Shown here: positions 4,057 through 35,370 of the stretch, piece by piece
Layout: each line of letters starts with the position of its first letter
Position numbering within the stretch: position 1 is the first letter of the stretch
Source of the DNA: a virus
Virus record (IMG/VR): IMGVR_UViG_3300035680_000866
Location: 34,586-98,585 of that record
DNA length: 64,000 bases
Direction: 5' to 3' (one strand)
Notes under the pieces: model-generated
What the model saw: only the letters and a program-made list of their open reading frames with translations
The model's database searches: none
Told to the model about the DNA's origin: nothing
Translations under genes and position numbers: made by a program

Positions 4057-4587
4057 TTATCTAGGACGGATCTTCATTTTACTGTAGATATTTTGGACAC
4101 CTACTGCTTGTCGGATAGCATCTTGCAGAGCATCGTGTTTCCCACCTTTGGGCATGTCCGGATCAAATCCTAGATCAAACAGAGTGCGAGTGTCGCGTAA
4201 CTGCCAATAATTCCACGGCAACGGCTTACCAAGTTGGCGATAGATGTTTTCGATAATTACTAAGTCAAAGGTAGCACCGTGTGACCAAAATGCATCACAT
4301 CCCCAAGCAAACTTGTGAAACTGGTCCATTGCATCCGCAAGTGGAATTCGATTGTCTGGACTAAAGGCTTCTTCCATAATAACCGGATCTTGTTTACTCC
4401 ACCAATCTAGTGTGTTTGGGTCAATTTCTCTACCCAATTTATCTTGGTCGTCGAGGTCAACACGGAAATAAATCTTCTCTCCATATCCGTTGCCCCAGGG
4501 ATTAAAGTGTACAGCGCCTAAACTAAGGACAACTGCGTTTGGGGAGACAGCCATAGTCTCCATATCAATCATTAAGTGTTTTGCCAT
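4057..4587 (-). CDS. DEDD-family 3'-5' exonuclease (Rv2179c-like, 176 aa)
   Basis: The N-terminus MAKHLMIDMETMAV holds the first acidic pair (D-x-E) of the DEDD fold. FWSHGATFDLVIIENIY supplies the second Asp, and KGGKHDALQDAIRQA the final H-D-A-x-x-D of the DEDDh type. The overall layout matches the Rv2179c-like exoribonuclease group seen in phages. It probably trims RNA or DNA 3' ends. The ATG at 4587 is chosen because a promoter -10 ends 6 nt upstream, so a longer reading to 4605 would start inside the promoter. The mRNA should be leaderless. Confidence 0.85.
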   Translation of the reverse strand: MAKHLMIDMETMAVSPNAVVLSLGAVHFNPWGNGYGEKIYFRVDLDDQDKLGREIDPNTLDWWSKQDPVIMEEAFSPDNRIPLADAMDQFHKFAWGCDAFWSHGATFDLVIIENIYRQLGKPLPWNYWQLRDTRTLFDLGFDPDMPKGGKHDALQDAIRQAVGVQNIYSKMKIRPR

Positions 4588-4593
4588 ACTGTA

Positions 4594-4622
4594 AGTATAA
4601 CACACTTAATGATCTTTGTCAA
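4594..4622 (-). promoter_or_regulatory. Sigma70 promoter giving a leaderless transcript
   Basis: TTGACA (4617-4622), a 17-bp spacer and TATACT (4594-4599). Only 6 nt separate the -10 from the ATG at 4587, so +1 should coincide with the A of ATG. The -35 overlaps the bS21 stop codon. Confidence 0.8.
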
Positions 4623-4852: not shown

Positions 4853-6065
4853 TTTTCTTTTTATCAAAAATCATTATGGCAGGTTTGCCATCAATCGTAT
4901 CTTTACTTATGCGAATAGCTGTTAAACCTCGAGCAACTAAGTCAACTGCATCAAATTGATATGGCAGCAATGTTTTTTCGATGATGTTTTTAAGTCCCCT
5001 AGCATTAGTTTTGAGATCTTTGGCTTTACGGGCAATTTCTTTTAGAGCTTGAATTTCAAATTCTAATTTAATACCATCTAACTCAAACATATACTGATAT
5101 TGTTTAACTGGGCTATTTTTAGTTTCAGTAAGGATATTGACTAGTTGATCCTCTGACAATTCGTCTACATTAGTAATAAGCCCAAATCGTCCTACAAACT
5201 CGGGAATAAGACCGTATTTGATAAGATCTTTTGTACTGATGTCTTGTAGAACACTTGCGTCTTCGTCGATGTTGTCTACATTTGCATGGAATCCGACTGA
5301 CTTTGCACCCTTACGCTGTTTAATGATTTTGTCCAAGCCTACAAATGCTCCACCGCATATAAACAATATACCCCTAGTGTCAATTTCCTGCATATCACTT
5401 CCGGGATGTTTTCGTTTACCAGTCGATGGCACTCGCATAATCGATCCCTCGATCATTTTCAACAAGGCCTGTTGTACACCTTCTCCACTAACATCTCGGC
5501 TAATACTAACATTTTCGCCCTTCTTGGAAATTTTATCAATTTCGTCAATGTAGACAATGCCACGAGCCGCTTTATCAAGATCACCATCTGCTTCGTTGAT
5601 TAATCTTGTTAAAATGCTCTCAACATCATCACCGACATAACCTGCTTCTGTAATACCTGTGGCATCACATATGGCAAAAGGTAATTCTAAATATTGTGCA
5701 ATTTTACGTGCCATCATGGTCTTACCGCAGCCCGTGGGTCCTAACAATAACACGTTGGTTTTCTCGAGCTCAATATCTTTACTAGGATTATTGATGCGTT
5801 TGTAATGCTGACTAACTGCAACACTAAGGCTAATTTTAGCATCATCCTGTCCTATAACGTACTCGTCAAGATAGTCTTTGATAGCAACAGGATTTAGAAG
5901 TTTAGAAGGTTCAGCAACTTTTTCTTTTTTGTCTTTTAGTATATCGACACAAAGGTCTACGCACTCGTTACAAATAGCCGCATGTTCACCTACGATCAGT
6001 TTCTCGACATCTTCTTTGCTCTTTCCGCAGAAGTCACAAGAGTGATCACTTTCTGTTTTGTTCAT
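4836..6065 (-). CDS. clpX: ClpX ATP-dependent unfoldase (409 aa)
   Basis: Near full-length ClpX. N-terminal C4 zinc domain (Cys 10, 13, 32, 35), Walker A GPTGCGKT (109-116), pore-1 loop GYVG (142-145), Walker B VYIDEID (171-177), RKH substrate-selectivity loop (about 218-220), and a VGF triplet (257-259) at the position of the IGF loop that docks on ClpP. The AAA+ C-terminal sensor region (FVGRFG, TNARGLKNIIE) is present. It should form hexamers that unfold tagged proteins and feed host ClpP; no clpP is seen in this window. It is co-transcribed with bS21 and lies 3.7 kb from a phage tmRNA whose tag ends LAA, the classical ClpX degron. Confidence 0.96.
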   Translation of the reverse strand: MNKTESDHSCDFCGKSKEDVEKLIVGEHAAICNECVDLCVDILKDKKEKVAEPSKLLNPVAIKDYLDEYVIGQDDAKISLSVAVSQHYKRINNPSKDIELEKTNVLLLGPTGCGKTMMARKIAQYLELPFAICDATGITEAGYVGDDVESILTRLINEADGDLDKAARGIVYIDEIDKISKKGENVSISRDVSGEGVQQALLKMIEGSIMRVPSTGKRKHPGSDMQEIDTRGILFICGGAFVGLDKIIKQRKGAKSVGFHANVDNIDEDASVLQDISTKDLIKYGLIPEFVGRFGLITNVDELSEDQLVNILTETKNSPVKQYQYMFELDGIKLEFEIQALKEIARKAKDLKTNARGLKNIIEKTLLPYQFDAVDLVARGLTAIRISKDTIDGKPAIMIFDKKKNEQTK

Positions 6066-6447
6066 TGAATGCCTTTTCTAAAAATGTTTCAATATTAGTT
6101 ATCCGATCTTGGTTTATGTAGTGATAAACTGCGGACAGGCTTTCATCATCAACTTTATAGAATGTATTCTTTTTCCCTACAATGTATCCACTGAGTGATC
6201 GAGTGACATCATTAACTTCGTTGAGATCGATGTATTTGTAATCGCATCTAGCCAACGCATGAAAGAGCCAAGGTAAATCTATTTCGTGATCGTAGAAGTA
6301 TACATTAATATGTTCTTCGATGTCTGATTCAGCTAACCATTTACTAACTAATTGTTGATCGGAATCGCTTAGATGCATAAACAGTACACTATACGAATCA
6401 TTTTCAAAAATGTCGGGAGGGGTGATGAGTGTAATTTTTCCGTTCAT
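6046..6447 (-). CDS. Hypothetical protein (133 aa)
   Basis: Begins MNGKITLITPPDIFEND, with an alternating alpha/beta layout (LITPPD..., SVLFMHLSDSD, HINVYFYD). It resembles small conserved T4-like phage proteins of unknown role. It overlaps clpX by 20 nt and the upstream gene by 1 nt (TAATG), so it belongs to the same operon. No catalytic motif seen. Confidence 0.65.
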   Translation of the reverse strand: MNGKITLITPPDIFENDSYSVLFMHLSDSDQQLVSKWLAESDIEEHINVYFYDHEIDLPWLFHALARCDYKYIDLNEVNDVTRSLSGYIVGKKNTFYKVDDESLSAVYHYINQDRITNIETFLEKAFNEQNRK

Positions 6448-7721
6448 TATCTTCTCGCTCTGATATCTAATAAAAGATGTTCTGGAATATCTGCCATTGT
6501 AATTTCTTTGTTTCTAAGTTTTGTCAACCACTCGTTAAGTGTTGCTTCCTGTCTGCTAATTTCTGTATATTCTTCCTGACTAATAGCTTTAGCTGTTTTA
6601 GTCCATAGGCCACTATTTGACTGTTCTTCGTTTTGAACAAATAGCGGTTCTTCTAGAACCTGTAATTCTGTTTCGGGCGCAACTGCTGAGCGATCATTCA
6701 TTCTTTCTAGTTCGGGCTTATACACCATAGGTGCTAGATCTTTGAAATGTACAAACGGCTCTAACAGATAAGGATGGTGTGCTAAAATAGATGTGACAGT
6801 GGTTGCCGTGGAGACTACGTCATCAATCGGACCTGTTGGGCTGTCACCCTCCGTAGTCTCTTGTTGTTCTGTAACAGTAGGCGGCTCTGGGTCTACGACC
6901 TCGGTGGTCCCTCCGGGGCTGTTACCCTCCACTAATTCCTTTTTACGGTCACGGAAATTCTGGAAACTGATCTGACTAGCTAACAATAAGATAACTGCCA
7001 ACGGATCAAATACCACAATAAGAACAATAATTACCCATGTAACTGCTTTTTCCAAAATTGTAGGATCTGTTTCACCGTAGACAAACTGTGCAATATATTT
7101 TATCGGACCAACTTCTGCTTCAACCTTGCGTACTTCGGCTGCAATTGGCGCACGTTCTTCGCTAATAGAGGTAATAGTTTTCTGTTCGGCTTGGATCTCA
7201 GATTGAAGGCGGGCACGCTCTTTTTGTTGTGCGCGGCGTATAGCAACTGCCTTGTCGGCACCCGTTTCCGAACTGCTTCTTGCCATGACTTGGTCCACAG
7301 CCTCATCCATCTGTTTAAGCGCCTTACGGTTTGCATCTATATTTTCCTTTGCGGTTTTTATCTTTTCATCGTAGACTGCAATCTTACTCTGCACGTCACC
7401 CGACACTAAACTTTGGTCACTGTGAGCCTGGCTGAGGAATCCAAAAATTCCCATCGAAGTAACGCCCATGAGAACAGCAATGGCAGTCAGCAGGTATGTT
7501 CTAACTAACCAGTGTGCAATTTTCCAATTTTGTTTGAGCCAAAGAGTAGCAGCAATCTTACCAATGCCCAATACAATGCCCATAATGATTACGGGAATTT
7601 GGGCGGCGGCAAAGATTGCAGTAAAGCCGATGATACTGTAGAATTCGGCGACTAGGCTGATAGCGAGACCGCTAAACAGTGCAAGATAGGCTATTAGTTT
7701 TTCATTTAATGTTACAGGCAT
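6447..7721 (-). CDS. Polytopic membrane protein with coiled coil (424 aa)
   Basis: Three hydrophobic segments lie near the N-terminus (about 9-30, 35-57, 72-95). A long charged coiled coil follows (about 110-205, rich in K/E/A/Q), then a fourth membrane helix (about 228-252, VTWVIIVLIVVFDPLAVILL) and a proline/threonine-rich, probably disordered tail. This matches a membrane protein type common in T4-like phages whose role is not known to me. The coiled coil between membrane segments might sense or scaffold the envelope. The start lies 6 nt downstream of a TAAATA late-promoter box. Confidence 0.7.
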   Translation of the reverse strand: MPVTLNEKLIAYLALFSGLAISLVAEFYSIIGFTAIFAAAQIPVIIMGIVLGIGKIAATLWLKQNWKIAHWLVRTYLLTAIAVLMGVTSMGIFGFLSQAHSDQSLVSGDVQSKIAVYDEKIKTAKENIDANRKALKQMDEAVDQVMARSSSETGADKAVAIRRAQQKERARLQSEIQAEQKTITSISEERAPIAAEVRKVEAEVGPIKYIAQFVYGETDPTILEKAVTWVIIVLIVVFDPLAVILLLASQISFQNFRDRKKELVEGNSPGGTTEVVDPEPPTVTEQQETTEGDSPTGPIDDVVSTATTVTSILAHHPYLLEPFVHFKDLAPMVYKPELERMNDRSAVAPETELQVLEEPLFVQNEEQSNSGLWTKTAKAISQEEYTEISRQEATLNEWLTKLRNKEITMADIPEHLLLDIRARR

Positions 7722-8598: not shown

Positions 8599-9603
8599 TT
8601 ATTTGATCTGTGTCCAAACACGTTCACGGATCTGCTTTGTCAAGCTGTCAGGCAATGCCACATAGTCTAGGTCGGCAGCATCTTTCTTACCATTCTTGAA
8701 TGCCCAATCAAAGAACTTTAATACTTCGTCACTAGTAGCTTTGTTAGCAGGAGTTTTGTACATGATGATAAAACTTGCTGAACTCACTGGCCATGCATTG
8801 GGATTCTTTTGATCCACGATGCTAAGTCCCATACCTGGAACACTGAACCAATCAGCACCATCTGCTGCGGCAGCAAATGTCAAGTCGTCCGGGCTTACAT
8901 ACTTGCCACTCTTGTTTTGTAGTTGCAGGAATGTCATGTTGTTTTTCTTAACATAAGCATACTCTACATAACCAATTGAACCTTTGATTCTGTTCACATT
9001 GGCAGCAACACCTTCATTGCCCTTGCCACCTACTGAAGTGGCTGCTGGCCACTTGACTGCGGCGCCACGACCCACACGTTGTAGCCACTCAGGGCTTACT
9101 GTGGCCAAGTAATCGGTCCAGTTGAATGTTGTACCTGAACCATCAGCACGATGAACAATGGTGATGTTCTCGTTAGGTAGGTTCTTGCCTGGATTTAATG
9201 CAGCCAGTTTAGGGTCATTCCACTTGGTGATGTTGCCCATAAACACTTCAGCCATAACTGGACCAGTGATGCGTAGTTCTCCGGGTTTGAATCCGTCTAA
9301 GTTTACCACAGGAACTGTGCCGCCAATGATAGCAGGAAATTGAACCTGTCCGTTCTTGTCCAAGTTCTCACCGCTTACCGGAGCATCTGTTGCACCAAAG
9401 TCAACGGTCTTTGCATTGATTTGACGAATGCCACCCGAACTTCCGATGCTTTGATAGTTCATGCCTGTACCTGTGGCTTTTTTGTAGCCTTCAGCCCACT
9501 TGGCATAGATTGGGAATGGGAAGGTAGCTCCGGCACCTGTAATGTCTGCGGCTTGTGCTGACACTGCTACGGCTGCAAATAGAATAGCAAATAATTTTTT
9601 CAC
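8599..9603 (-). CDS. pstS: Periplasmic phosphate-binding protein PstS (334 aa)
   Basis: A Sec signal peptide (MKKLFAILFAAVAVSAQA|A) is followed by the PstS signature ADITGAGATFPFPIYAKWAE, the phosphate-site segment SIGSSGGIRQI, and FGATDAPV. HRADGSGTTFNWTDYL is the second phosphate-binding loop. PstS captures phosphate in the periplasm for the PstCAB importer, here presumably that of the host. The start is the GTG at 9603: it has the RBS AAGGAGA, and the signal peptide begins there. A longer ATG reading to 9645 would run into the Pho-like repeats. It is a known auxiliary metabolic gene in marine T4-like phages. Confidence 0.96.
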   Translation of the reverse strand: MKKLFAILFAAVAVSAQAADITGAGATFPFPIYAKWAEGYKKATGTGMNYQSIGSSGGIRQINAKTVDFGATDAPVSGENLDKNGQVQFPAIIGGTVPVVNLDGFKPGELRITGPVMAEVFMGNITKWNDPKLAALNPGKNLPNENITIVHRADGSGTTFNWTDYLATVSPEWLQRVGRGAAVKWPAATSVGGKGNEGVAANVNRIKGSIGYVEYAYVKKNNMTFLQLQNKSGKYVSPDDLTFAAAADGADWFSVPGMGLSIVDQKNPNAWPVSSASFIIMYKTPANKATSDEVLKFFDWAFKNGKKDAADLDYVALPDSLTKQIRERVWTQIK

Positions 9604-9638
9604 TGTAAGTCTCCTTGTGTTTGTGATATTAATATTTA

Positions 9639-9667
9639 AACACAAAACGATTACAATATGATTACAA
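9639..9667 (-). promoter_or_regulatory. Pho-box-like direct repeat array upstream of pstS
   Basis: Three 7-bp units at exact 11-bp spacing on the minus strand: TTGTAAT (9661-9667), TTGTAAT (9650-9656), TTGTGTT (9639-9645). PhoB sites are 11-bp direct repeats beginning CTGT(C/A)A, so this is a good candidate for host PhoB control of the phage gene. A TAATAT -10-like hexamer lies just downstream. Confidence 0.7.
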
Positions 9668-9680
9668 TTTTAAGAAATTT

Positions 9681-9710
9681 TTGCCAAAAAGAAACCCGCC
9701 GAAGCGGGTT
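9681..9710 (-). terminator. Rho-independent terminator of the tmRNA gene
   Basis: AACCCGC-TTCG-GCGGGTT (9693-9710) followed by TCTTTTT on the minus strand. Confidence 0.85.
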
Positions 9711-10130
9711 CTGCTATTTTGGGTGACAAGGTATAACTACCTCGTGGAGATCACGCTGCTAGGCGGTCTTCTCCAAAGTATGCATCGTTTGCATTTAGGT
9801 TTTTTGCTTCTGCGACCGGGTCACCCCAATCCTAACGGCTTCTACATTGCCGGACTGTCCATTTCAATACTCTTGACCCAATCGATCCTGTGTCAGGCCC
9901 ATTATAAAACATACTCACCCGAATGGACATTGTCACCTCCGCCTACTGTCGGAAATATGTTTTATGGTGGACCTGGCGGGCACTGCCCCCGCGTCTTGAA
10001 TCCTTTTCTGTCTACTTCATACAGTCTTAACTTTTAACAGACTTCCCAGGGTGTGTTTGGCCTCTGCTAAGCCTGCAGGAATCTCACCTACTGCATATCT
10101 GCTACGCAAACTTGCCCCTGCGAAAGTCTA
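9711..10130 (-). ncRNA. ssrA: Circularly permuted, two-piece tmRNA
   Basis: Acceptor piece first (about 10130-9965): it ends in a T-arm GCGGG-GGCAGTG-CCCGC, acceptor strand CAGGTCC, discriminator A and encoded CCA (9965-9967). A 64-nt spacer (9964-9901), bounded by the 9-bp inverted repeat TAAAACATA/TATGTTTTA, is presumably excised. The coding piece starts GGGCCTG (9900-9894), which pairs fully with CAGGTCC, followed by a tmRNA-like D region (ACAGGATCGATTGGGTC). The tag frame (9813-9754, stop 9751-9753) begins after GGTC with resume codon GCA and encodes AEAKNLNANDAYFGEDRLAA. tmRNA rescues stalled ribosomes and tags products for ClpXP. Permuted order occurs in alpha-, some beta-proteobacteria and cyanobacteria. 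The T-loop lacks TTCGANT. Confidence 0.93.
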
Positions 10131-10136
10131 TTATTT

Positions 10137-10166
10137 ATTATACAACAGGATTGCCTTGACTGTCAA
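10137..10166 (-). promoter_or_regulatory. Sigma70 promoter of the tmRNA, with late-box overlap
   Basis: TTGACA (10161-10166), an 18-bp spacer and TATAAT (10137-10142), located in the 3' end of the upstream gene. The -10 reads on as TATAATAAATA, which also contains the late-type TAAATA. Confidence 0.8.
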
Positions 10167-13810: not shown

Positions 13811-14185
13811 TTAATGTTTTTTACGATAATCTTCAACAGCAGCTTTAATAGCATCTTCAGCCAATATACTGCAATGTATCTTAACGGGCGGTAGTGCTAA
13901 TTCTTCAGCAATCTGGCTATTACGAATGTTACTAGCATCATCCACATGCATTCCTTTAACCATCTCAGTGACAAGACTGGAGCTGGCGATTGCTGAACCA
14001 CATCCATATGTCTTGAAACGAGCATCTCTAATAATACCATTTTCATCTACCTTTATCTGTAATTTCATTACGTCACCGCAAGCAGGTGCACCGACCATGC
14101 CTGTACCTACAGTGTCGTCTATTTCAAACTTACCTACATTACGAGGGTTTTCGTAATGGTCAATTACTTTATTTGAGTATGCCAT
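13811..14185 (-). CDS. iscU: Fe-S cluster scaffold IscU (124 aa)
   Basis: The three cluster-binding cysteines are in canonical places (Cys36 in GAPACGDVM, Cys62 in YGCGSAIASSS, Cys105 in KIHCSILAEDA), with the Asp of ACGD. The LPPVK motif (98-102) recognised by the HscA chaperone is intact, so the protein can probably use host IscS and HscA/HscB. Start taken at ATG 14185 (MAYSNKVIDHYENPRNVG), the usual IscU N-terminus. No iscS in the window. Confidence 0.96.
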   Translation of the reverse strand: MAYSNKVIDHYENPRNVGKFEIDDTVGTGMVGAPACGDVMKLQIKVDENGIIRDARFKTYGCGSAIASSSLVTEMVKGMHVDDASNIRNSQIAEELALPPVKIHCSILAEDAIKAAVEDYRKKH

Positions 14186-14189
14186 AGTT

Positions 14190-15290
14190 TTATAAATCCG
14201 GTAATTCGTCGTAACTAACTGCATCACTCATAACACCGATGACATAGTTAGTACTTTCGTTTTCTTGCAAGGCGGTCTGTTTCTTATTGATATTAACGTG
14301 TTTGTTGAACCAAGGGATAGGACTAAACTTAGGATGCTCTCCTTGATACTTAATACCAATTTCCTTTAAACGCACAAACGCAGTGTAGTCAACAAAGTCA
14401 GACAGGATAGTAGCATTAAGGCCAATAACTGGTCCTAGCTTGAACAAATAATCTGCCCACTCTTTTTCTTCTCGGATGACATCCATATAGAGGGTATAGA
14501 CTTCTTCTGCACATTCTTCTTCAAGTTTTACAAAGTCTGTATCATCTTTAGTCACGTTGTTGATCAGCCAGGCAGTCCATTCTGTATGTAACAACTCATC
14601 TTGTAGAATCAAACTGATGATGTTACCGTTGCCAATATAGATCTTATTCTCTACCATTGCTAGACTTGTGGCAAAACTTACCATGAAGCGTAGAGCCTCC
14701 AATGCATATGATGCGTGTAAGGCCAACCATATGGCTCGCTTATGAGTATGGAGTTCAATTTCCTCGCCCAACTCTTTACGACAGTTGAGCTGATGAAGAT
14801 CCTCATAGTAGCGACCAATGTTAGCAGCCATGCCAACAATTTCAGCCGTGTCGTGAATCTTGTTAAATTCTTCTTTAGGTACGCCATAGACATTACGAAT
14901 AATGTGACTGTAAGATTTTGAGTGAATATTTGTTTCAAAGAAACTCCAATTGCTTACTAATGCTTCTAGTTCAGGAATACTGATAACAGGTTGAAATACT
15001 TGATTAGGTGCGCGACCTTGAATACTATCTAATGCTGTCTGACGCAGTAAGTTACTAGTAAAAATATGCTTAACTGCATCACTTGCATCCTTGTGATCCA
15101 TCTTGTCTTTAGTAAGACTGATCTCTTCTGGGACCCAAAAGAATCCACGAGCAAGTTCTTCGTACTTGGTAATCTTAGGGTACTTGACTTCTTCAAAGCG
15201 TTGCACAGTAACTGGACCAGCTGGATCCAGAAACATTGTACGTTTTAGATAGTTTGTTTGTTTTGATAGATTGTATTGTTCTTTGCTCAT
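14190..15290 (-). CDS. nrdB: Ribonucleotide reductase class Ia, beta subunit NrdB (366 aa)
   Basis: R2 fold with diiron/tyrosyl-radical residues: Asp in LDSIQGRAP, Glu and His in FFETNIHSKSYSHI together with the radical Tyr, Glu in LEALRFMVSF, and Glu/His in LQDELLH. Compared with E. coli NrdB (SETIHSRSY) there is one extra residue between the second iron ligand Glu and its His partner (E-x3-H instead of E-x2-H). The C-terminal tail (SDAVSYDELPDL) should dock on NrdA. Makes deoxynucleotides for phage replication. Confidence 0.95.
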   Translation of the reverse strand: MSKEQYNLSKQTNYLKRTMFLDPAGPVTVQRFEEVKYPKITKYEELARGFFWVPEEISLTKDKMDHKDASDAVKHIFTSNLLRQTALDSIQGRAPNQVFQPVISIPELEALVSNWSFFETNIHSKSYSHIIRNVYGVPKEEFNKIHDTAEIVGMAANIGRYYEDLHQLNCRKELGEEIELHTHKRAIWLALHASYALEALRFMVSFATSLAMVENKIYIGNGNIISLILQDELLHTEWTAWLINNVTKDDTDFVKLEEECAEEVYTLYMDVIREEKEWADYLFKLGPVIGLNATILSDFVDYTAFVRLKEIGIKYQGEHPKFSPIPWFNKHVNINKKQTALQENESTNYVIGVMSDAVSYDELPDL

Positions 15291-18110: not shown

Positions 18111-20042
18111 TTACAGCATTAATTTATTTTGGAATTCAAGAACTACGGGAACTGTTATAACAGGACCAAAATTTGTGTCTGTATTTAAACTTGCACTAAT
18201 TTCGTAATAGCTTCCTGTATTATTTACGCTGACAAAGAACGCTAGGCCACCGTCTGAATTAATAAAGTTGTAATCGTCAGTGACCAATACATTAGGGTTT
18301 GCACTATCTTGTAGGTAAACACCTAGGTTACCCATTCTATCTAACTGTGAAGCAAAAGCTAAAATGTCAGTTGCCGCCAATGTAACAGTATTTGAAAATG
18401 TGATCGTATTTGTATCATAATCAACCGCATCAATTACTGTATTAGGTGGAATAACTGAAGTTACTGTAGAAGCTACAAGAATTTCAACGGTAGAAAACTC
18501 TAACACTGAAGTAGTATCATTTATAGTAGCAGTGGTTCCGTTTATTGTGCCAATAATAACAGTAGCAGTACTTGCTCCTGCATTTTGTCTAAATGCACTG
18601 TACTTAATACCTAAATGTTGACTGTTGCCTGTAATAGGTAATCTTAAGAAGGTAGTTGCAGTGTTGCCAGGATAGATAGTTGCAGTGGTAACAAATACTT
18701 CGTCTAGTGTAGTTCTTCCGTCAACTAGAGGTCTATAATATGTAGTTAAAGGAGTGTTGATATATTGCTTATGAACAAGTGCTCGTCTAAAATGATCATT
18801 GATGCTGGAGTTTTGATCAGATAAGAAACTAATAACCGCGCTGGCGGTTGATCCTATGTCACCGTATTCGTCATCGTGTCGTATGCCAACTCTTTCAAAA
18901 AAGTTGTTCTGACTTATTACATAACTACCTGTGTTAGAACCATTACTACCTACGTAAATAGCTTCTCGTTCTATAACATCAAATCTGTTGTTGGCAATTT
19001 TTACAAAGGTAGGTCCAACTAAGGCTGTTCCGTCTTTAGGATCATTAAATGTTACGCCTCTTACCAATGTATTAAATTCTGAGTTTTGAATCGTAATTGT
19101 TTTAATATCATGATTAGATATAACTCCAGAATAAAGACCATCAAAGGAACAATTGTCAATAATAGAATTAGCATGTGTTCCGTTTTCTGTCTTACCTCGT
19201 AGGTTTAATCCTACGTAACCTGATGTAGTTAATACTCCAGTTCCCGTTGTGTGATTGCCTTTAAACTCTACATTCCTAATTAACGAGTTGTCGGCACAGT
19301 CAAGACTTAACAAACTCATTGCTGATGTAACAGTTGTAGCTGTATTATACTGTAATGTAAGATCACTCATTTGAATGAATCTTGCAGTACCTGTAGTTAC
19401 AAAACCACCTGAGTCGAATGTAAGTGGGTTAAGGCCACTGACGGACCGACTATCCATTGTTTTAATCATAGCAGATGTATTCGTTGTCAAAACAAATACA
19501 GTCTTTCCAATACCATCACCTATAATATTAGTATAAGCAGGAATATAAACAGTTCCTGTTATGTAATATGTACCGGCTGGAAAATACAACTTTTTAGCCG
19601 GATCAATATTGTACTTTGCATTATTTAAAAACAGCCTATCAATAGTAAATTGTAACCTATCTAGATCCCAATCATTACCATTGCCGTAAACTCCAAAATC
19701 TCTTACACTAACAATATCATCTAATTTATCTTGTATAGTTCGATCCCATTCGGCACCACCATACTCAGTAATACCGTCAATTCCTGCCACAGCAGAAGCC
19801 GAACCTTCTCTATAGATATAAGTTGATGTTGTGAAACTAACTTGGAAGAAGTTCTTCAGATGATTTTCTGTTAGAATTTCTACATTTGCGTCACGTGACC
19901 CACCGTCATCTCTTCTTAAGCCGACGAACAGACGTTCTGTATCAGCAGCCCAAGCAAATTCGCCACCTGCAAGTGCAGGTATTCCTGTTTGATTTTCTTG
20001 TCCTCTTCGGACCTGGATTTTTGCAATCTCGATGACAGCCAT
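18111..20042 (-). CDS. Tail fibre/spike with beta-helix domain (643 aa)
   Basis: N-terminal fibre-attachment domain of the Mtd-N type (IAKIQVRRGQENQTGIPALAGGE...ERLFVGLR, about 1-45). It is followed by a pectate-lyase-3-like entry (VSVRDFGVYGNGNDWDLDRLQFTIDRL; LYFPAGTYYITGTVYIP) and a long right-handed beta-helix to about 440, then a beta-rich tip. Such spikes bind or depolymerise surface polysaccharide. No catalytic residues can be assigned by eye. An AGATAAATA late box lies 24 nt upstream. Confidence 0.8.
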   Translation of the reverse strand: MAVIEIAKIQVRRGQENQTGIPALAGGEFAWAADTERLFVGLRRDDGGSRDANVEILTENHLKNFFQVSFTTSTYIYREGSASAVAGIDGITEYGGAEWDRTIQDKLDDIVSVRDFGVYGNGNDWDLDRLQFTIDRLFLNNAKYNIDPAKKLYFPAGTYYITGTVYIPAYTNIIGDGIGKTVFVLTTNTSAMIKTMDSRSVSGLNPLTFDSGGFVTTGTARFIQMSDLTLQYNTATTVTSAMSLLSLDCADNSLIRNVEFKGNHTTGTGVLTTSGYVGLNLRGKTENGTHANSIIDNCSFDGLYSGVISNHDIKTITIQNSEFNTLVRGVTFNDPKDGTALVGPTFVKIANNRFDVIEREAIYVGSNGSNTGSYVISQNNFFERVGIRHDDEYGDIGSTASAVISFLSDQNSSINDHFRRALVHKQYINTPLTTYYRPLVDGRTTLDEVFVTTATIYPGNTATTFLRLPITGNSQHLGIKYSAFRQNAGASTATVIIGTINGTTATINDTTSVLEFSTVEILVASTVTSVIPPNTVIDAVDYDTNTITFSNTVTLAATDILAFASQLDRMGNLGVYLQDSANPNVLVTDDYNFINSDGGLAFFVSVNNTGSYYEISASLNTDTNFGPVITVPVVLEFQNKLML

Positions 20043-33700: not shown

Positions 33701-35370
33701 GCACCTGTTCCACTTCTTACAGCCACAATATGTAACCATCTATTTGTAACAAACGGACTTCCCGATGTTGCTATAGTATTGCCTACGCCGTATGTACCAA
33801 TATTTAAATTTCCACCGCTATCTGTTTGTAATTGTATACCTCCGTTTGTAGTGGTACCAAATATAATAGCGTTTGTTGGTATTGATGTAGGATAAGCCCA
33901 AAACTCTATAGTAAAGGCACTAGTTCCGAGCGTCATTGATTGTGCCGTTAAAAAGTCCCCAGTACCATCAAAGTAAGTACTGCCGTATCCACTATAACTA
34001 GTATTGGGTACAAACGGATCAAACCCTGATATAGCCAAATTTCCATTTACTGTTAGTGCAAAATTGTTTGTACTGTTATCAATAAATCTATTGCTCTGAC
34101 AAGTTAATAAAGTAGTACCTGCAATAGCAGTTAGTGGTACCGTAGGCGGTGTAAAGTTAGCTGTATAAACAGCAGAACCTTTGACTATTCTTACATTAGA
34201 AATATATCCGTTGAAGTCCCATCCACTGCCTGCATCTGGATTTCTACCAATGTAAAATGTACTTGCATTATCGGAGCCCGGGACAAGTGCGCCAGTAGCT
34301 GTTTGCGCTACACCGTTTAAGTACAGTATATTTGTTGTTCCGTCGTAACACATGGCAACATGATTCCACTGGTTCAAAGGAGCAGTATTGTTTGATAGTT
34401 GACTACTGCCAGTATTAAATAACCAAGTCACTTGTTGAGATGTGTTTACATCAAGTCGCCATCTTGCGGCGCCTGATGAAATTAATTGAACTTGTTTTGA
34501 GCTTGTTTGATAAAACCAACATTCAACAGTCCACGACCCGGAGCTTAGGTTAAATGCTACATTTCCCGGATTAGATATAAAATCACCAGTACCATCAAAG
34601 AAATTACTGTAATATCCAGGTGTATATGGACCGAAGTTATTTGGTCTAGTATCGCCAAATATAGATACTGGGAAGTTGTTTGTACTTGCATCGTCGACAA
34701 ATACACTAGTTGCAGGGGAATTTGCACTAATCAATGTAGTGACATTTTTAAAGAAAGGGTCAGCGATCGTTATAGTAACAGTAAAGGCTCTGGGGCTTTC
34801 TTGTAATTCCACATCAATTGCTTCTATAGTAAAATTATAAAGTGTTTCAACACCCACTGCAACTAATCCAGTAATTAATCCACTGCTGGACAATGAAACA
34901 CCGCTCGGTAAACTACTACCGGCTTGAACCGCATATGTTAGTGGTGAATCTCCGGTTGTTTCTAGTTGTATAGAGATGGCAGTATTTGCCGGTTGATCGG
35001 GCAATGTACTACCTGTTACCCAAGTAGGGTTTCCACTATAGGTTAACCCATTAACTCGTATTGCGACTCCACCATCGGGATTGACTACATACACTACATA
35101 TGTACCCGCAACCTGTGCAGGAACCTGTACATTTAGGGTAGTACTATTTACAAATGTAACTGATGTTGCGTTTGCACTGCCTAAAATAACTTGACATCCT
35201 GAAACAAACTTAGTTCCTGTGAGTTTTATGTAACCACCGGATAGTAATACAGCGGTATCATCAATAATAGCATAACTGGCATCTGTTATTTGTACGTTGG
35301 TTAACGTAGGGCCGCCCAACGCGGCTAATGTTGCAGGTTGTATGTTGTCTTGACTAATTTGAGTAGGCAT
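30790..35370 (-). CDS. Giant tail fibre with IPT/TIG, Ig-like and six LamG domains (1526 aa)
   Basis: N-terminal IPT/TIG domain (~1-112), a putative Ig/cadherin-like He_PIG domain (~115-205), then six tandem concanavalin/LamG-type jelly rolls. Each is marked by YFDGTGDFL...FTIEFWAYP..., W-x-H-(I/V)-A, and YISNVRIVKGTALYT...PLTAIAGTSLLTC, with linker FIDNSTNNF. LamG folds bind carbohydrates, so this is probably a host-receptor adhesin with many sugar-binding units. No signal peptide. Its N-terminal domain is duplicated as the next gene upstream, and its C-terminal end as the remnant at 30315. Confidence 0.85.
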   Translation of the reverse strand: MPTQISQDNIQPATLAALGGPTLTNVQITDASYAIIDDTAVLLSGGYIKLTGTKFVSGCQVILGSANATSVTFVNSTTLNVQVPAQVAGTYVVYVVNPDGGVAIRVNGLTYSGNPTWVTGSTLPDQPANTAISIQLETTGDSPLTYAVQAGSSLPSGVSLSSSGLITGLVAVGVETLYNFTIEAIDVELQESPRAFTVTITIADPFFKNVTTLISANSPATSVFVDDASTNNFPVSIFGDTRPNNFGPYTPGYYSNFFDGTGDFISNPGNVAFNLSSGSWTVECWFYQTSSKQVQLISSGAARWRLDVNTSQQVTWLFNTGSSQLSNNTAPLNQWNHVAMCYDGTTNILYLNGVAQTATGALVPGSDNASTFYIGRNPDAGSGWDFNGYISNVRIVKGSAVYTANFTPPTVPLTAIAGTTLLTCQSNRFIDNSTNNFALTVNGNLAISGFDPFVPNTSYSGYGSTYFDGTGDFLTAQSMTLGTSAFTIEFWAYPTSIPTNAIIFGTTTNGGIQLQTDSGGNLNIGTYGVGNTIATSGSPFVTNRWLHIVAVRSGTGANQTSIFFNGVRNVNGTVSTNYVAGPATIGGAASQMFFGYISNFRVVIGTAVYDPTQTTLTVPTEPLTAIAGTSLLTCQTNQPVNNNVFIDNSTNNFLITRNGNTTQGTFSPYGGGWSNYFDGTGDYLSIPDNAAFTLGTNDFTFECWVYPTSITSGNNNILAQWGTGNAWIFRYVAAGRLQFSGAATNVTGTTTAVVINQWNHVAITRSSSTVRLFVNGVLDATTGTIGALTDGASQVTVGAYSDGTSEYVTGYISNLRLVKGTALYTANFTPSTAPLQPIAGTSLLTCARNRLVDASPNNFAVTKAGDVSVQKFSPFTETSLPTPYYSNYFDGTGDYLTVPSNAAFNITSGSTDSFSCELWVNFATVSANRTIIDNGGLDTVSFSNWAIYLNASSQIAINWGASGAPGSSGIGVLPSSTVPVAGQWYHLALVKTNADWALFINGTRATSFNGLNTAAKTSASALYIGFGIIAGGGGHVGYISNVRIYNGATGSAPYAATSTTITVPTEPLTAIAGTSLLTCQSNTFIDNSTNNFAITAVGNTIPSQFAPFNVAYTTRQRYTPQVFGGSSRFDGTNDWIGSAQTNTTSVMNFASGQDFTMELWVYSTSGLADYTIANYGTYKEAYNSERVIWITNKSASIFISGGSNTSSVQYTALFPSSATLSTNSWNHIALVRSSNFIKVYVNGVGGTAVSAPGAAQPLSSRYDLAGPNGLWLGVNSTNWTAFNPVGVTGYISDFRYVKGTALYTSNFVPQNTPLTAVRNTVLLINGTGAGVYDSSGMNNYETVGDAKIDTTVVKFTGTESVKFDGNGDSLTYIGGASINFGTGDFTIELWVNMANTSTFSSFLRPDDGGSVVSFGYDWSTTQLKLDARNAVILNVTTTAVVANTWTHIAATRSGTSLRLFVNGTQVGSTTSNSTNFASATGLIYIGGSSFSAAHSVNGYISDFRITLGIARYTANFTPPTGVSLTQ

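Follow-up and report, generated by a model that had tools for sequence, protein, structure and literature searches.

Phage-encoded tmRNAs, permuted ones included, are already in print. A survey of 18,146 phages found tmRNA in 402 of them, with 133 unique structures of which 53 are two-piece (PMC9004378), so that the view taken in the initial annotation of the DNA studied here, that permuted ssrA genes are a bacterial feature and phage tmRNAs are rare, needs qualifying. A further study, with 79 unique bacteriophage tmRNA sequences, deals with the Rfam family RF04321, which models the tRNA domain only (PMC11915505). Huge phages with both tmRNA and SmpB have been reported (PMC7162821), and the tmRNAs of phage G and of mycobacteriophages are treated in PMC4131195. 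Phage Melnitz and related marine myophages are close counterparts of the system described below, since there too a two-piece tmRNA is encoded by a phage, one that has been called T4-like; in Melnitz the tmRNA is, moreover, associated with a structured RNA, there predicted to be a glutamine riboswitch (PMC9004378). Parts of the proteolytic route that disposes of ssrA-tagged proteins are also phage-borne: Pseudomonas phage pf16 encodes SspB (PMC5587285), and Clp proteins have been described in jumbo phages in two papers whose main texts do not mention tmRNA (PMC7824862; PMC6102473). Conversely, ClpX and ClpP do not occur in the main text of the Melnitz paper (PMC9004378). Sinorhizobium phage AP-J-162 has a tmRNA and Clp genes including clpX, the two not being connected in the passages that mention them (PMC11242549), and our literature searches brought up no passage that joins phage tmRNA with phage ClpX.

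Here we describe a permuted tmRNA gene and its surroundings in a 64,000 nt stretch of viral DNA (hereafter "the window"; positions 34,586 to 98,585 of IMG/VR record IMGVR_UViG_3300035680_000866, which has 98,585 bases). One gene on the record has a segment to which cyanophage baseplate wedge proteins are ~60% identical; the record also carries tail-fibre and virion genes, ribonucleotide reductase and DNA ligase, and its first 4.4 kb hold 24 tRNA matches, 23 of them over the cut-off. From this gene content we infer that the source is a T4-like phage. Other genes in the window include a PstS-like phosphate-binding protein (8599-9645) directly 3' of the tmRNA terminator, a NifU-like Fe-S assembly protein (13811-14227) and a protein of 643 residues whose Pfam match is pectate-lyase-like (18111-20042). 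A nicotinamide phosphoribosyltransferase (L011:9331-10725) and a radical SAM protein (L010:6991-8073) lie on the same phage record.

The complete permuted tmRNA gene spans positions 9692-10166 of the window on the minus strand (Table 1). The initial annotation had read here a phage-encoded permuted tmRNA with its own promoter, terminator and tag, and had proposed a covariance-model search as a check. With cmscan against Rfam, tmRNA_permuted (RF04321) matched at 101.9 bits (gathering cut-off 47; E 1e-18), and the promoter, which agrees with the consensus at all 12 positions, the terminator and the tag frame bear out the rest of that reading. Transcription would run through the promoter, a leader, the T arm, the 3' acceptor strand with CCA, a spacer, the 5' acceptor strand, the tag frame and the terminator; the coordinates agree with the earlier placement of the 3' acceptor strand and T arm ahead of the 5' acceptor strand and tag. 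Two details needed adjustment: the 5' strand of the acceptor pairing, GGGCCTG, was placed correctly at 9894-9900, with its partner CAGGTCC one base away from the 9968-9974 first given, and the inverted repeat bounding the spacer is present with 10 bp rather than nine, its arms being ATAAAACATA (9956-9965) and TATGTTTTAT (9904-9913). The spacer between these acceptor strands would be excised from the tmRNA. The 7 bp acceptor stem has both CCA and a G3.U70 pair, the latter of which we take to be the alanine identity pair.

Table 1. Features of the tmRNA gene and the clpX region, in window coordinates.
Feature	Position	Strand	Basis or detail
Sigma-70 promoter	10137..10166	(-)	TTGACA 10161-10166, 18 nt, TATAAT 10137-10142; 12/12 consensus
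Structured leader RNA	10033..10132	(-)	Fold z -3.75; 82.8 bits with covariance model R1, which has the window copy among its 32 training rows
Permuted tmRNA, tRNA-like domain to tag stop	9751..10026	(-)	RF04321 101.9 bits
T arm GCGGG-GGCAGTG-CCCGC	9976..9992	(-)	Read from sequence
3' acceptor CAGGTCC 9969-9975 with encoded ACCA 9965-9968	9965..9975	(-)	Pairing also in relatives
Intervening spacer, 64 nt	9901..9964	(-)	Closed by 10-bp helix
5' acceptor GGGCCTG	9894..9900	(-)	Read from sequence
Tag frame ANDAYFGEDRLAA and stop	9751..9792	(-)	Aligned to the model's resume region
Post-tag hairpin GAGGTAGTTATACCTTGTCACC	9722..9743	(-)	beta_tmRNA model alignment
Intrinsic terminator	9692..9711	(-)	Read from sequence
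133-aa protein	6046..6447	(-)	Overlaps clpX start; relatives in 80/80 clpX loci
Phage clpX, 409 aa	4836..6065	(-)	Zinc finger and AAA+ domains; Pfam zf-C4_ClpX, AAA_2, ClpB_D2-small
Rv2179c-like 3'-5' exoribonuclease	4057..4605	(-)	Pfam; 3' of clpX; relatives in 71/80 clpX loci

The gene shares its tRNA domain, permuted order and resume site with the Rfam families RF04321, RF01850 and RF01849. Of the two clade models, alpha_tmRNA (RF01849) gave 55.5 bits, meeting its cut-off of 50, for model positions 40-240 of 355 only, and beta_tmRNA (RF01850), run with permissive filters, aligned over its full length at 59 bits, under its cut-off of 84. The pseudoknots of tmRNA are not part of RF04321, and the full-length beta alignment, which makes them a possibility, is sub-threshold. 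ARAGORN did not call the gene, and no named phage showed DNA similarity to it. We conclude that this is a real and complete gene for a phage two-piece tmRNA, which is probably functional.

The encoded tag is ANDAYFGEDRLAA, 13 codons from position 9792 with the stop ending at 9751; the resume codon is predicted, having been set by alignment to the model's resume region UAAaUGCaAACGA. The LAA end first proposed for the tag stands, whereas the first seven residues of the 20-residue tag as originally read (AEAKNLN) are encoded ahead of the resume site, and the longer tag was rejected. Among 55 extracted relatives, whose tags were parsed with a rule that seeks an AND-like start, 52 tags begin with AND and the other three are ANASNDEVWALAA; 54 end in [LMVIF]AA, the lone exception ending in ...LAANA. 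We scanned one genome from each of 84,980 prokaryote species with the pattern AND[ADE][YF]FGExx[LMVIF]AA-stop and found no match to this 13-residue form, so that the scan, used as a host search, likewise named no host among those species. By contrast, the pattern matched 59 viral contigs, all 59 in the form AND[ADE][YF]FGExRLAA. Both acceptor strands were found in permuted order by a simple rule in 46 of the 59, and several of the remaining 13 are truncated where a contig stops. As a positive control, a 10-residue tag pattern matched at least 120 bacterial stretches, with many betaproteobacterial names among the 80 matches listed. The window thus differs from the Rfam tmRNA families in having a 13-residue tag form with viral matches only in these scans. 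Tags also vary on nearly constant bodies: ANDAYFGEDRLAA and ANDSQFALAA, for example, occur on tmRNA bodies that are 99% identical.

We collected 61 tmRNA records, of which 55 have enough flanking sequence for counts of tags, promoters and terminators and 54 of these gave a body; the 55 extracted units include only 45 distinct ones. In each of 32 units (30 relatives, the window and Sinorhizobium phage Phosso), a single 7-mer that starts with GGG and stands ahead of TCGA can pair along its whole length with the 3' acceptor. All 32 have U at position 70, which the rule, asking for GGG and full pairing only, did not demand. Together, the single fully pairing 7-mer and the invariant U70 indicate that the acceptor pairing is more than chance. 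A GGG...TCC rule with seven pairs, which itself includes pairing and G3.U70, fits 54 of the 55 relatives in 10 versions that vary at positions 4 to 6. A T arm lies at the same place with at least four pairs in 52 of the 55 (all five in 49), and its commonest loops are GGCAGTG, as in the window (19 relatives), and TTCGACT, TTCGATT or TTCGAAT (19 together). An extension helix at the spacer, with 8-15 pairs when G-U is allowed, is found in 26/32 units. Promoters with at least 10/12 consensus positions precede 25 of the 55 relatives (four with the window's own site) versus 11% of single-base shuffles, and a terminator-like hairpin lies within 150 nt past the tag stop in 50 versus 0.8% of such shuffles. 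In record G058, the intact tmRNA is followed downstream by another copy that looks degraded (L154, minus strand, at about 700-1000); it scores 38 bits, below the cut-off, and its tag would end in MVA.

The initial annotation had also proposed acquisition from a betaproteobacterial host. In its favour, among 20 loci chosen from 30 phage tmRNA loci, the clade model over its cut-off was beta_tmRNA in 15, alpha_tmRNA in four and neither in one. Permissive scans ranked beta above alpha even for the window copy (59 versus 55.5 bits), and beta_tmRNA was the clan's best model for two further loci, L118 (72.1) and L105 (70.0), both under the cut-off of 84. Against it, the window falls short of the beta cut-off, a locus whose type is identical to the window's (L121) is one of the four alpha_tmRNA loci, and the window's T-loop, GGCAGTG, resembles the alpha form when set against the model consensus, though most tested relatives score as beta. 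We lean towards a betaproteobacterial origin, as suggested by the model scores. RF04321 also matches 5 of 14 control genomes, mostly below its cut-off. The 80 bacterial loci around 10-residue tags yielded four permuted bodies (17 under loose rules, with visibly false pairings), and four bacterial upstream stretches look one-piece by eye.

The tmRNA is preceded by a structured RNA that makes up approximately the first 100 bases of the transcript and ends six bases before the tmRNA model. It folds into a closing stem, three hairpins and a 6 bp pseudoknot between the loop of the third hairpin and the 3' tail. The structured element of Melnitz differs from it, being reported as similar to the glnA motif and as situated in the 3' domain of ssrA rather than ahead of the gene (PMC9004378). 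A search with nhmmer and one iteration gave 80 leader matches at E 0.001 in the gathered viral loci, overlapping loci included, and 32 distinct sequences were aligned. RNAalifold predicted 23 pairs from this alignment, 16 of them with compensatory changes. With 22 nested pairs plus the pseudoknot, 93.0% of alignment cells are paired, as compared with 78.1% in letter shuffles and 39-47% when partners are slid, the structure being favoured over the slid versions because it was derived from the same alignment; 19 pairs change on both sides, versus 14.1 in shuffles. Of the seven pseudoknot pairs entered for this count, 70-107 is not a pair, and the other six all form in 30/32 sequences. The leader therefore shows a conserved structure with covariation.

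A covariance model of the leader, R1, found it at E 0.001 in 48 of the 80 clpX loci described below, 26 of which, with the window, had supplied training rows; 42 of the 48 are in tmRNA-bearing records, and all 48 copies are located 5' of clpX, in its orientation. R1 also found the leader in 8/71 mixed loci and in 68/68 new loci from a pattern scan (80 of 82 stretches) that preselects the leader and draws some loci from the same records. None of the 80 bacterial loci around 10-residue tag matches contained it, none was found in plasmids, and named phages gave only a 26 nt chance match in a Lactococcus phage. Rfam searches at E 0.5, 1 and 2 returned no leader family for the window copy, seven further loci or the best-scoring copy; near the window's leader and gene, the only Rfam matches at E 1 were tmRNA and two weak sRNA matches. 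Support for the leader as an RNA family is good, and our Rfam searches yielded no counterpart to it.

What follows the leader is varied. Among 65 copies, 60 of them distinct, 35 have a frame with a Shine-Dalgarno-like site no more than 90 nt away, 13 come just ahead of a tmRNA acceptor, and 19 have neither; two copies belong to both of the first groups, their frames with such a site being inside the tmRNA. By a simple threshold, His- or Gly-rich proteins follow 22 of the 35, starting 2 to 53 nt on. Those at L373:901-1218 and its relatives have about 105 residues, a signal-like start and often a WVAPAIIGGAVVYG-like segment, and three such proteins that were tested gave no Pfam match over the cut-off. 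NifU-like and metallophosphatase genes also follow leader copies. We suggest that the leader probably regulates in cis, determining the timing of tmRNA production, and it may be a riboswitch; the downstream genes are diverse and do not belong to one pathway, and because they are so varied a single metabolic ligand is disfavoured. There is a real possibility that the leader instead serves in processing, acts as a ribozyme or stabilises 5' ends in general, since such a mixture of genes (tmRNA, His/Gly-rich proteins, NifU-like, metallophosphatase) would be unusual for one ligand pathway and, in the window type, only six bases separate leader and tmRNA model. In pseudoknotted translational riboswitches, the 3' strand of the pseudoknot lies just before the Shine-Dalgarno site; indeed, in some leader copies this strand ends a few bases before such a site, which speaks for a ligand-sensing element.

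The window also encodes a full-length ClpX, 3.7 kb downstream of the tmRNA on the same strand. ClpX structure 8e91 aligns with its residues 10-407 (414 bits), and it has the C4 zinc finger, Walker A and B motifs, GYVG pore loop and ClpP-docking loop (tripeptide VGF). Regular expressions applied to 54 phage ClpX proteins matched the zinc C4, Walker B, G[YF]VG and [IVLMP]GF motifs in all 54, Walker A and IPEFxGR in 53 each and RKH in 51; the expression for sensor 2 matched none, since it excluded the NARGL form present in the window copy. ClpP was over the cut-off in 3 of 51 records, which are the three longer than 200 kb, and below it in three more. One of the three, of 207.8 kb, has a clpX 100% identical to that of the window, and the alignment of its ClpP to the E. 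coli enzyme covers the length of the protein; on visual inspection the Ser, His and Asp regions are retained. Searches for SmpB were negative in all 51 phage records (positive in 10/14 control genomes) and those for SspB in all 40 searched (positive in 2/14), many of the records being fragments, which makes these absences weak evidence. Since no smpB was found in the 51 records, SmpB would have to come from the host. The window group differs in these respects from pf16, which has SspB without a tmRNA (PMC5587285), in that it combines tmRNA and ClpX, with ClpP in the long records, and showed no SspB in the records searched. We also considered the 133-aa protein encoded beside clpX as a tag adaptor; its structure model (pLDDT 90.5) appears nearest to a nucleoside deoxyribosyltransferase, the best PDB match being the putative enzyme 4mcj at E 6e-4, and the candidate was set aside, although with matches this weak it may still be an adaptor. 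Pfam gave nothing over the cut-off for a protein of 424 residues that is hydrophobic towards its N terminus (6447-7721).

To ask how regularly the two genes occur together, we searched whole records of the best 80 of 185 viral clpX relatives (63-100% identity). RF04321 was over its cut-off in 61 of the 80 (42/50 and 19/30), the window's own record being additional, and in all 61 the tmRNA precedes clpX on the same strand, at a distance of 2.6-17.5 kb. Two of the 19 records without such a match begin within 150 bases of clpX. In ten others, clpX is preceded by 11 kb of sequence or more, so some of the absences are probably real; two of the ten carry RF04321 matches of 23-24 bits. Conversely, 47 further records have the 13-residue tag, and 43 of them, including one of 184 kb, show no clpX, which rules out an obligate coupling of tmRNA and clpX; the gene is present in the other four, in one only as a 56-residue end piece.

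Relatives of the neighbours of clpX are as widespread across the 80 loci, which were cut at 10 kb or at a contig end: the 133-aa gene in 80, a 130-aa gene in 76, the 424-aa gene in 74 and the exoribonuclease gene in 71. Because these neighbours are equally conserved, the linkage may be inherited synteny. On that basis the tmRNA could be a neutral or decaying passenger that synteny has kept in this phage group, and the degraded-looking second copy in one record would fit such a fate. We consider this very unlikely. The acceptor pairing, tag ends and terminators are kept, while pstS and a DUF2452 gene, which flank the tmRNA, have relatives in only 19/80 clpX loci each. Distances between tmRNAs and between ClpX proteins are only weakly correlated (Mantel r 0.30 for 54 records including duplicates; 0 of 2000 permutations as high), and alleles therefore appear to have been exchanged at a kept place. 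Two records in which the tmRNA bodies are 99% identical and the ClpX proteins 66% identical likewise suggest exchange between phages at that place, a further point against a passenger.

More distant phages give the association some weight beyond synteny. The tmRNA was over the cut-off in 4 of 7 distant clpX-bearing phages versus 0 of 11 large control phages, for which neither the permuted nor the standard model gave more (one-sided Fisher 0.011), the controls being hand-picked with clpX absence not confirmed phage by phage, and three of them having RF00023 matches below the cut-off. The seven are eight records with clpX hits minus an Acinetobacter contig whose clpP-clpX-trigger-factor setting looks bacterial; other listed distant clpX records, many of them short and unannotated, were left out. 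Like the window, Bacillus phage G, Sinorhizobium phage Phosso, Prevotella phage Lak-A2 and uncultured phage LR756511 have both clpX and tmRNA, but at least 30 kb apart, and the tmRNAs of G, Lak-A2 and LR756511 match the standard model rather than the permuted one. Atu_ph07, Pseudomonas phage 30-3 and SCTP-2 carry clpX and have no tmRNA over the cut-off. The tmRNA-clpX link thus partly exceeds synteny. In Phosso (L135, 349596-350198), which also carries clpX, a spacer of roughly 410 nt interrupts the permuted tmRNA, whose tag is ANDNVSTKVALAA.

We propose that the phage two-piece tmRNA works during infection, supplying ribosome rescue and disposal through ClpXP with SmpB from the host, and we regard this as the likely reading. 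RNase P and 3' nucleases would remove the spacer, AlaRS would charge the molecule, and host SmpB would bring it to stalled ribosomes. Stalled chains would then receive (A)ANDAYFGEDRLAA, the expected tag on a nonstop product being AANDAYFGEDRLAA, and tagged chains would be degraded by ClpXP, made up of phage ClpX and host or phage ClpP, such that the phage would provide both rescue and disposal. Against this reading stand the separate occurrence of tmRNA and clpX in part of the records, a linkage that synteny may explain and the weak correlation of tmRNA and ClpX distances. These features are also consistent with the function suggested in the initial annotation, that is, rescue or redirected tagging.

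It is possible, if improbable, that the phage tmRNA acts against the host, either by tagging host proteins early for recycling, as has been proposed for the tmRNA of Melnitz (PMC9004378), or by competing with host tmRNA, a phage tmRNA with only the tRNA-like domain being similar to a tmRNA inhibitor (PMC4131195). The full-consensus promoter would suit such a role, as would a tag form that matched viral contigs but none of the prokaryote genomes scanned and a phage supply of ClpX, with ClpP in long records. Unlike the reduced phage form, however, the window gene has a complete tag frame. In addition, tmRNA acts on stalled ribosomes whatever their origin, which gives no reason to expect that host proteins would be singled out. 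We give similarly little credence to an elaboration of the rescue-and-disposal reading, in which a virus-evolved tag, a tmRNA controlled by a novel pseudoknotted riboswitch class in its leader and a phage ClpX (with ClpP) tuned to that tag would form a private tag-and-destroy route; if true, rescue during infection would be uncoupled from the host system.

The phage two-piece tmRNA is of a known kind; here it comes with a tag form seen only in viral contigs in our scans, a linked clpX and an apparently undescribed leader. Phage tmRNAs of this kind are probably undercounted, because ARAGORN, the detection tool of two of the surveys cited above (PMC9004378; PMC7162821), finds only 27 of the 55 relatives' tmRNA genes and misses 28. 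That phages have tmRNAs has been known, and their use has so far been a guess. The combination of a distinctive tag form, a candidate unfoldase and a regulatory-looking leader makes the question of whether they serve rescue, recycling or the blocking of the host a testable one.
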